A program made the translations under genes and the position numbers. The notes under the pieces were generated by a model. It did not search any database. It saw only the letters and a list, made by a program, of their open reading frames with translations, and had not been told where the DNA came from. From Armatimonadota bacterium (GTDB taxonomy: Bacteria; Sysuimicrobiota; Sysuimicrobiia; Sysuimicrobiales; Humicultoraceae): a DNA stretch of 64,000 nt. Shown piece by piece: positions 11,270 to 13,929 of the stretch. The stretch lies in NCBI GenBank assembly GCA_031081715.1, contig JAVHMA010000009.1, forward strand, positions 1 through 64,000, in the 5' to 3' direction. Every line of letters starts with the position of its first letter. Within the stretch, counting starts at the first letter, position 1.

Positions 11270-11974
11270 CTACGCGAACAGGGCGCTGATCGCGCCTTCG
11301 GCCTGCAACAGCCGGCGCTTGAGGCCGGCCCCCCCGCGCAGCGAGTAGCCGCCGAGCCCACCGTCGCTGCGGACGACCCGGTGGCAGGGGATCAGCAGGG
11401 GAAGCGGGTTGCGCGCACACGCGCTCCCGACCGCGCGCGCGGCCCCGGGCTCGCCGAGCCCGCAAGCGATCTCGCGGTAGGTCCGCACCTGTCCGGCGGG
11501 GATACGGCGCAGCGCCTCGAGCACCTCGCGCTCGAAGGGCCCGACCCGCGCCAGGTCAACCGGACCACGAAATGCCTCGTGCCGACGCACGGCCGCCACC
11601 GTGGCCTCGGCCAGCCAGCGCGGAGGCCGCCCAGGGGTGACCGGCGCGGCCAGGTAGCGCGTCGCTTCGCGCTCGAACGCCCGTGCCGAGGTCGCGATGC
11701 GGGCGAACGCCGGCCCGCGCGGCCCGAAGGCCACGTAGAAGGCGCCGAACGGCAGCGGGAACGCGGCGTACCGGTAGCCAAACGCCGCGCCGGAGACGTC
11801 GGCGTGCCGCCCGCGGCGGGCCTGCGCCAGGGCGTCCAGGTCGCGGTCGGCGAGGCGCACTAGCGACGCGACGGGCCGGCCGTGACGGGTGACCACGACG
11901 GGCTCGCCGGCCAGCGCGGTGCGCAGGACCTCGTTCGTGCGGTTCTTGAGCTCTGCGGTGGAGACCAGACGCAC
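11270..11974 (-). CDS. Phd/YefM-type domain fused to O6-alkylguanine-DNA alkyltransferase
   Basis: A 234-residue two-part protein in one uninterrupted frame. Residues 1-45 (VSTAELKNRTNEVLRTALAG, then PVVVTRHGRPVASLVRL) match the DNA-binding fold of Phd/YefM antitoxins. Residues about 60-234 are an Ogt/AGT suicide alkyltransferase: acceptor Cys197 in PCHRV, Tyr166, Arg180 finger, Asn189 hinge and Glu226 near the end, all intact. It should remove O6-alkyl groups from guanine by irreversible self-alkylation. The start is GTG 11974, six bases after GGAGG; that site touches a perfect inverted repeat. The uvrC stop codon lies 30 bases upstream, so it sits in a repair gene block. The fusion suggests an Ada-like self-regulated repair protein, which is inference. 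Confidence 0.88.
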   Translation of the reverse strand: MRLVSTAELKNRTNEVLRTALAGEPVVVTRHGRPVASLVRLADRDLDALAQARRGRHADVSGAAFGYRYAAFPLPFGAFYVAFGPRGPAFARIATSARAFEREATRYLAAPVTPGRPPRWLAEATVAAVRRHEAFRGPVDLARVGPFEREVLEALRRIPAGQVRTYREIACGLGEPGAARAVGSACARNPLPLLIPCHRVVRSDGGLGGYSLRGGAGLKRRLLQAEGAISALFA

Positions 11975-11983
11975 GGCACGCCT

Positions 11984-12011
11984 CCATATAGCCCAGAATA
12001 TGGCTATATGG
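11984..12011. promoter_or_regulatory. Perfect inverted repeat over the start region of the fusion gene
   Basis: CCATATAGCC (11984-11993) and GGCTATATGG (12002-12011) are exact reverse complements around an 8-base AT-rich spacer. The spacer side adds a third ATATGG (11998-12003). One arm overlaps the Shine-Dalgarno GGAGG of the Phd-alkyltransferase gene and the other covers the uvrC stop codon. It is a candidate operator for the fused Phd domain. There is no U-run, so a terminator is less likely. Confidence 0.6.
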
Positions 12012-13929
12012 TATCACCATCGGGGCGTCCGTCAAGGGACTTGCCCGATCCGGCGCCGAGCGCCGCCTCCGGGGGTGGCGCGTCGCCGGCCAGGTGCGCG
12101 GCCACGCGCGCGGCCAGCCGCGGGCCGAGCACCTCGGCCAGGGCCTCGGGGGACGCCGCCCGGACCCCACGCACCGAACCGAACCGGCGAATCAGTTCGC
12201 GCTTGCGGCGCTCGCCGATACCCGGGACGTCGTCGAGGGCCGAGAAGACGATGCGCCGCTCGCGCAGCCGCCGGCCCGCGGCGTTGGCGAACCGATGGGC
12301 CTCGTCGCGCACCCGCTGCAGAAGCTGCAGCGCCTGGCTGGCCGCGGCCAGGCGCAGCGGCTCCGGCCGGTCGGCCAGGTAGAGCGCCTCGTGCTCCTTG
12401 GCGAGCCCGGCGGCCGGCACCGCGACGTTGTGCTCGAACAGCACCTCGCGCGCGGCATTGAGCTGGCCCCGGCCGCCGTCGATCAGGATCAGGTCGGGCA
12501 GCACCGACCATCGCGGTCGCTCGAGCTCGCCGGCGTCCAGGCGTTCCTGCTCGTCGCGCGCGCGAGAGAACCGCCGCCGGAGCGCCTCCTGGAGGCTCGC
12601 GTAGTCGTCGTCGCCCGCGGGCCCGCGGATGCGGAACTGCCGGTAGTCGGCCTTCCGCGCCACGCCGCCCTCGAAGACGACCATCGAGGCAACCGCCTCT
12701 CCCGCCTGGAAGTGGCTGACGTCGTAGGCCTCGATGCGGAACGGCGCGGCCTCCAGCCCGAGCGCCTCCTGGAGCTCGGCCACCCCCACGACCGCCTGGC
12801 CGCCCACCTCGCGCGCGCGGGTCTGTGTGAGGGCGAGCGCCGCGTTCTCGCGCGCGAGCTCGACCAGCCGGCGCTTCTCGCCGCGCTGCGGGACGAGCAC
12901 GTCCACCTTTCCCCCGCGGCGCTCGCCCAGCCAGGCCGCGAGCACCGCGGCGTCGGGCAGCTCGACGTCGGTGAGAATCTCACGTGGCAGCACGGGCAGG
13001 TCGGCGTAGTGCCGCGCGAGCGCCTGAGAGAGCAGCTCGCCGGCCTCCAACCCCCGTGCCCCGCGGACGAGCAGGTGCTGCTGGTCCTGGATGCGGCCGC
13101 CGCGAATGGTGATCAGCTCCACGCACGCCAAATCGCCCGACTGCGCCACGGCGGCGATGTCGCGGTCCTCGAGCCCGGTGGTCGCGATGCGCTGCCGCTC
13201 GGCGATCGCCTCCATCGCCTGGATCTGGTCGCGGAGCTGCGCCGCGCGCTCGAACTGCAGCGCATCGGCGGCCGCAGCCATCTCGGCGCGGAGTTCGTCG
13301 AGCAGGCTGGCCTGGCGGCCCTCCAGGAACAGGGCGGCCTGGCGCACCTGCCCGGCGTAGGCCTCGGCCGTGGCGCCCCAGGCCACGCAAGGTGCCGTGC
13401 ACAGACCCATGTCGTAGTCCAGGCACGGCCGCGGGAGGTCACCCCGGATCTCGATCTGGCAGGTCCGCAGCTTGAAGAGCCGGCGGATCGTCCGGATCGT
13501 CCGGCCCACGAGCTTGGGCTCGTGGTAGGGATACGGGCCGAAGTAGCGCGCGCCGTCGCGCACGATCTTGCGCGTCATCACGATGCGGGGGAACGGCTCG
13601 GCGGTCAGCTTCACGTACGGATAGGCCTTGTCGTCCGCCATCCGGATGTTGTACGGCGGCTGATGCTGCTTGATCAGGTTGGTCTCGAGGATGAGGGCCT
13701 CGACCTCGTTGGCGGTGACGATCGTGTCCACGTGAACGATGCGCGGGACCAGGACCCGGAGACGCGGATTGGTGGCCGCGTCGGGGTCGTGAAAGTACTG
13801 CCGCACACGCGCGCGCAGCGAGGCCGCCTTGCCAACGTAGAGCACGCGGCCGCCGGCGTCCCGGAACAGGTAGACGCCCGGACGCGCCGGCAGCAGCCGG
13901 AGGGTCGCCTGGAGCGCCTCGGCGGCCAC
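12004..13929 (-). CDS. uvrC: Excinuclease ABC subunit C
   Basis: A 641-residue UvrC, the nuclease that makes both incisions in nucleotide excision repair. The GIY-YIG domain is at the N-terminus (PGVYLFRDAGGRVLYVGKAA). A UvrB-contact helix lies near residue 210 (AADALQFERAAQLRDQIQAM), then the RNase H-like 5'-incision domain (YDVSHFQAGEAVASMVVF, DLILIDGGRGQLNAA) and C-terminal helix-hairpin-helix (DDVPGIGERRKRELIRRFG). The start is GTG 13929, four bases after the uvrA stop, with no obvious Shine-Dalgarno sequence, so coupling to uvrA is likely. Confidence 0.97.
   Translation of the reverse strand: MAAEALQATLRLLPARPGVYLFRDAGGRVLYVGKAASLRARVRQYFHDPDAATNPRLRVLVPRIVHVDTIVTANEVEALILETNLIKQHQPPYNIRMADDKAYPYVKLTAEPFPRIVMTRKIVRDGARYFGPYPYHEPKLVGRTIRTIRRLFKLRTCQIEIRGDLPRPCLDYDMGLCTAPCVAWGATAEAYAGQVRQAALFLEGRQASLLDELRAEMAAAADALQFERAAQLRDQIQAMEAIAERQRIATTGLEDRDIAAVAQSGDLACVELITIRGGRIQDQQHLLVRGARGLEAGELLSQALARHYADLPVLPREILTDVELPDAAVLAAWLGERRGGKVDVLVPQRGEKRRLVELARENAALALTQTRAREVGGQAVVGVAELQEALGLEAAPFRIEAYDVSHFQAGEAVASMVVFEGGVARKADYRQFRIRGPAGDDDYASLQEALRRRFSRARDEQERLDAGELERPRWSVLPDLILIDGGRGQLNAAREVLFEHNVAVPAAGLAKEHEALYLADRPEPLRLAAASQALQLLQRVRDEAHRFANAAGRRLRERRIVFSALDDVPGIGERRKRELIRRFGSVRGVRAASPEALAEVLGPRLAARVAAHLAGDAPPPEAALGAGSGKSLDGRPDGDTI

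Follow-up and report, generated by a model that had tools for sequence, protein, structure and literature searches.

An antitoxin-type DNA-binding domain joined to an O6-alkylguanine-DNA alkyltransferase behind a conserved inverted repeat: a candidate self-repressing repair enzyme

The window analysed here, the whole 64,000-nucleotide stretch of DNA from an Armatimonadota bacterium (contig JAVHMA010000009.1), carries a minus-strand gene in which a Phd/YefM-type antitoxin domain and an O6-alkylguanine-DNA alkyltransferase (AGT) share one reading frame. The neighbours at the locus are uvrC and an ABC-transporter ATPase gene, and on inspection neither was the adjoining toxin gene that a type II toxin-antitoxin locus would have. 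The features are as follows.

11270..11974, minus strand: Phd-AGT fusion gene, 234 aa, GTG start (open reading frame; Pfam and NCBIfam profile matches)
11840..11974, minus strand: Phd/YefM-type DNA-binding and dimerisation domain, residues 1-45 (Pfam and NCBIfam, AlphaFold, PDB fold matches, pN/pS)
11780..11839, minus strand: variable linker, residues 46-65, in place of the antitoxin's toxin-binding tail (pN/pS, identity, pLDDT)
11555..11779, minus strand: AGT N-terminal subdomain, residues 66-140 (1sfe alignment, fold match)
11291..11539, minus strand: AGT catalytic domain (DNA_binding_1), residues 146-228 (Pfam)
11384..11386, minus strand: codon of the acceptor cysteine Cys197 in PCHRV (invariant in the alignment)
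11981..11985, minus strand: Shine-Dalgarno GGAGG, just before the GTG start (read directly from the sequence)
11984..12011, no strand assigned: predicted operator CCATATAGCC-N8-GGCTATATGG (perfect inverted repeat; orthologue conservation; co-varying arms; single genomic site)
11988-12007: conserved operator core ATAGC-N10-GCTAT, within the predicted operator
12008..12013, minus strand: probable -10 element TACCAT, overlapping an operator arm (consensus reading)
12030..12035, minus strand: probable -35 element TTGACG (consensus reading)
12004..13929, minus strand: uvrC, co-oriented with the fusion gene and upstream of it, with its stop codon inside the operator repeat

The first-pass annotation had described a Phd/YefM domain fused to an AGT with Cys197, Arg180 and Asn189 intact, and profile searches confirmed both halves above curated cut-offs. 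PhdYeFM_antitox matched residues 1-43 (Pfam; E 1e-8, 35.3 bits against a cut-off of 29.8), TIGR01552 phd_fam matched residues 5-45 (NCBIfam; 37.4 bits against 20.8) and DNA_binding_1 matched residues 146-228 (Pfam; E 1.9e-32). The three catalytic residues were invariant in 11 aligned fusions, and the sequence marks of an AGT were all present, namely DNA_binding_1, the PCHR acceptor cysteine, the arginine finger and the active-site asparagine. Among solved structures, the best relative of the C-terminal part was the E. coli Ada C-terminal fragment (1sfe), aligned from residue 63, and the N-terminal part gave weaker sequence matches to VapB46, RelB and Phd. In the AlphaFold model the N-terminal part had the beta-alpha-alpha-beta-beta-alpha fold of Phd/YefM N-domains (strand 2-5, helices 6-11 and 13-21, strands 26-30 and 33-37, helix 43-61; pLDDT about 80-84), and pLDDT fell below 50 at linker residues 56-64. 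In a fold search with the full model the top matches were AGTs; Phd-type proteins followed, among them P1 Phd in complex with operator DNA. The N-domain alone retrieved the VapB46 N-domain, P1 Phd and others, the matches being weak (E of at least 0.05), as a domain this short would lead one to expect. The toxin-binding C-terminal tail is absent: the Pfam match stops at residue 43, and past about residue 55 the sequence departs from stand-alone antitoxins. Pfam found neither the N-terminal zinc/methylphosphotriester domain (PF02805) nor an AraC-type helix-turn-helix in the fusion protein, and the Cada2 motifs SPHFQR and RLHD are absent from the 234-aa sequence. The fusion of an antitoxin DNA-binding domain to an AGT is real.

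A scan of 43 genomes of the phylum, where the relatives are largely metagenome assemblies, recovered full-length fusions from 16 genomes, which belong to two families (f1 and f3); identity to the window protein was 51-71%. Translation beginning after residue 50, which would leave out the first domain, does not fit these homologues, as the frame start M/V-R/K-x-x-[SN]-T-x-[ED]-L-K is common to all 16. Summed pN/pS was 0.15 for Phd residues 2-45 and 0.13 for the catalytic domain; the AGT N-subdomain gave 0.33 and the linker 0.47 (mean pairwise identity 34%). Purifying selection is equally strong on the Phd and the catalytic domain, indicating that the Phd part is made and used. Two further copies were damaged. 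The G018 copy (L034 / L088) has a frameshift after residue 33 with its operator intact, possibly a sequencing or assembly error or recent damage. The G013 copy (L035) has lost the Phd hairpin and the Pfam match, and its operator has decayed and its promoter is not recognisable; it may be regarded as a natural test of the coupling between Phd domain and operator, the correlation being that of a single case.

The window's own genome has one AGT gene, its sole DNA_binding_1 match, and some fusion genomes also have a second, weaker DNA_binding_1 gene. N-Ada (PF02805) was not found in the own genome or any fusion genome; it was present in 14 genomes of the phylum, none of which has the fusion. A tree built from AGT domains placed the fusions in a cluster of their own, with moderate support, away from the phylum's remaining AGTs. 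Scans beyond the phylum were pattern-based or sampled and could miss rare distant fusions; at this depth no full-length fusion was found outside the phylum in the genome collection, nor any in phages or IMG/VR. A scan of 386 genomes of relatives, 343 of them outside the phylum, gave no full-length fusion outside it among the matches listed, and three plasmid matches covering 80% were annotated ada. A separate observation concerns Thermoplasmata/Euryarchaeota MAGs, in which AGTs are joined to HTH_10 with both domains over Pfam cut-offs (L006, L009, L010, L014 and L016); these are an independent fusion of a DNA-binding domain with an AGT and possibly another alkylation regulator.

The palindrome at 11984-12011 is a perfect 10+8+10 inverted repeat, absent from 100 shuffles. 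An inverted repeat precedes every fusion copy, with the orthologue consensus ATAGC-N10-GCTAT; apart from G002 (7), every copy agrees with this core at 8-10 of its 10 positions. Across 16 aligned sites the arms pair in 89.6% of cells, with 17 two-sided changes; none of 500 shuffles paired as highly, and slid controls reached at most 49%. Sigma-70-type -35/-10 pairs were recognised in 13 of the 18 copies, and in most of these the -10 abuts the 5' operator arm or runs into it; in G003 and G004 some ten bases separate it from the operator downstream. The window promoter, with a -10 at 4/6 consensus and a 16-nt spacer, recurs in orthologues of the nearest genus. Judged by sequence, the gene would have a palindromic operator overlapping its own promoter, as Phd/YefM genes do. 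In the alignment all fusions carry Lys10, and each has an arginine at residue 30 or 31, to be compared with Arg10 and Arg31 of YefM. The f3 site consists of two near-palindromic octamers (ATRGCYAT-N4-ATRGCYAT, 8/8 copies) with centres 12 bp apart. The same centre spacing at the -10 is known from E. coli, where the two palindromes that YefM contacts through Arg10 and Arg31 are likewise 12 bp apart and one of them covers the -10 (PMC4803016).

Each genome was searched for further operators with a profile that included arm pairing. Only the gene's own promoter was found at E up to 0.1, and in the own genome only the 11984-12011 site at E up to 10; extra matches to a loose pattern fell below the profile threshold and were about as frequent as in a reversed control. 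No Ada-type multi-gene regulon was found by this search, and a wider regulon was rejected on these grounds.

The gene had also been described as following uvrC. This holds for the window, and uvrC is directly upstream in genus g7 (one other f1 genus) and in f3 as well; it is not near the fusion gene in four f1 relatives (G002-G005). Three of these four (G003-G005) keep 9-10 of 10 operator positions, so that proximity to uvrC is not essential and the operator belongs to the fusion gene rather than to uvrC. Two other roles for the repeat were rejected. As a uvrC terminator or RNA element it would not be expected to be AT-rich, to persist without uvrC nearby in three clear cases, or to stand before unlinked phd-parE modules. 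As a regulatory site for uvrC, which lies upstream on the same strand, it would sit at the stop codon and miss the promoter.

The closest stand-alone antitoxins (L091, L092 and L018) have in common NTVELKN[RK]TN and a DLEDF[IV]-like segment, the latter kept in the f3 fusions, and each is followed by a ParE-family toxin scoring over cut-off. The full ATRGCYAT-N4-ATRGCYAT operator stands at L091 and L018, with a near match at L092. An origin of the DNA-binding part in a toxin-antitoxin family, with no adjacent toxin, had been proposed at first sight; these phd-parE modules with the fusion's operator add that the DNA-binding part probably came with its regulatory surroundings. Since the operator is common to the fusions and their closest modules, the regulatory unit and not just the domain was probably captured, that is, promoter, operator and DNA-binding domain, the toxin and the toxin-binding tail having gone. 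We infer that the transfer ran from the phd-parE module to the fusion. At remoter Phd genes of the phylum the TAGC/GCTA palindromes are related to this operator without being the same. TAGC/GCTA-core palindromes with other spacing and flanks lie upstream of the stand-alone Phd-type genes L097, L099, L127, L131, L052, L101 and L125, which suggests a readable Phd-operator code in the phylum. Genome G008 holds both a fusion and a phd-parE module (L092) with a similar operator, and cross-regulation between them is possible.

We propose that a single-chain, self-consuming repair enzyme represses its own gene and that repression is relieved as the AGT becomes alkylated, a reading that we hold to be reasonably probable as a whole. 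Two Phd/YefM domains would dimerise, bind the inverted repeat over the -10/start region and block transcription, and the AGT domain would repair O6-alkylguanine by moving the alkyl group irreversibly onto Cys197. Once alkylated, the protein would be destabilised or degraded, or else drawn off to damaged DNA; the repressor would then be lost, and the promoter would open until fresh enzyme restored repression. The AGT would stand where the phd-parE module had its toxin and toxin-binding tail. Autorepression of the own promoter is highly probable because the site is over or beside the -10, is single, and goes with an antitoxin ancestry; the G002 copy, with its 7 of 10 operator positions, counts against it. 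Relief by alkylation is favoured slightly, because known AGTs are destabilised by alkylation and the PCHR cysteine of Cada2 acts as a switch when methylated (PMC10957082); Cada2 also counts against it, as methylation there activates and does not relieve. Alkylation lowers the melting point of the Sulfolobus AGT by 20-35 C, and degradation after alkylation is documented in eukaryotes and archaea, its extent elsewhere not being established (PMC10779285).

The loss in G013 and the frameshift in G018 could be taken to mean that the Phd part is a relic of a broken toxin-antitoxin locus, or the product of a start-site error, and is not made or used. However, a pN/pS of 0.15, together with a start and an architecture common to 16 genomes from both families, makes this extremely improbable, and we rejected a start-site error or unused N-domain on the grounds of selection and conservation. 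Phd domains dimerise and bind DNA, and AGTs scan DNA, so the Phd domain might serve only to make the repair enzyme a dimer or to raise its affinity for DNA, with no regulation. We consider this very unlikely, as a conserved, co-varying, promoter-bound operator would be left unexplained, and so would a once-per-genome site common to phd-parE modules.

A plain homeostatic autorepressor, in which the Phd part holds the AGT at a steady low level and neither DNA binding nor stability responds specially to alkylation, deserves more weight, though it too is unlikely: all the operator evidence fits it, as does the lack of a regulon in the profile search. It must be set against the lower stability of known AGTs once alkylated, which would provide feedback without an extra device (PMC10779285), and against the precedent of Cada2 for such coupling (PMC10957082). 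That precedent invites a further reading, in which alkylation of Cys197 makes the protein activate its own promoter, since Cada2 controls its own expression and becomes active once its PCHR cysteine is methylated (PMC10957082). Such an activator seems quite unlikely here, as an operator over or just downstream of the -10 is in a repressor's position, Phd/YefM proteins are repressors (PMC4803016) and the fusion has no AraC-type domain detectable by Pfam.

Under self-repression relieved by alkylation, a suicide repair enzyme would have taken over a toxin-antitoxin promoter, operator and repressor domain, and spending the enzyme would remove the repressor and so bring its replacement, the negative-feedback opposite of Ada; on whether this makes a new class of alkylation-response regulator our judgement is evenly balanced. 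A housekeeping repair enzyme has probably come under the control of an antitoxin's regulatory half, reused along with its operator. Should alkylation indeed relieve repression, this would be among the simplest damage sensors conceivable, the enzyme's own consumption being the signal. For bacteria without N-Ada it would be an alternative to Ada and Cada2 that can be put directly to the test, and it would also provide a portable repressor-enzyme switch.

The first-pass annotation knew of no described system of this kind. A fusion of a Phd/YefM domain or antitoxin with an AGT was indeed not found in the literature searched, AGT autorepression included, most subscription papers being outside its coverage; coupling through the AGT cysteine has, however, been described for Caulobacter Cada2 (PMC10957082). 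Cada2 resembles the fusion in joining an AGT to a DNA-binding part without the N-Ada zinc domain, and in the autoregulation and PCHR-cysteine switch that are shown for Cada2 and proposed here. It differs in having B-box and RLHD helix-turn-helix domains, in activating and in controlling several genes, whereas the fusion has a Phd/YefM domain, is a predicted repressor and has one promoter. With Phd/YefM antitoxins (YefM-YoeB, Phd-Doc and the local phd-parE) the fusion has in common the N-domain fold and profile, and with the local phd-parE also the operator; unlike them it has no toxin gene, and an enzyme replaces the toxin-binding tail. On this sequence evidence it is a Phd/YefM-domain protein and not a toxin-antitoxin module. 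AGTs are joined to other modules in AGT-EndoV and C. elegans AGT-2 (PMC10779285) and in the archaeal HTH_10-AGT, none of them with an antitoxin-type domain. E. coli Ada has the same kind of C-terminal AGT domain (1sfe being the best PDB match), and one protein serves both repair and control of its own gene, the control being predicted in the fusion. The fusion differs from Ada in lacking the N-terminal zinc domain, the AraC-type domain and the activator boxes, and without the zinc domain sensing must go through O6-alkylguanine. The initial label of Ada analogue therefore stands as far as repair is joined with probable self-control, and falls as far as it implies the activator of a regulon, with one site per genome in a repressor position; the analogy appears right in outline, with the opposite sign and a one-gene regulon.
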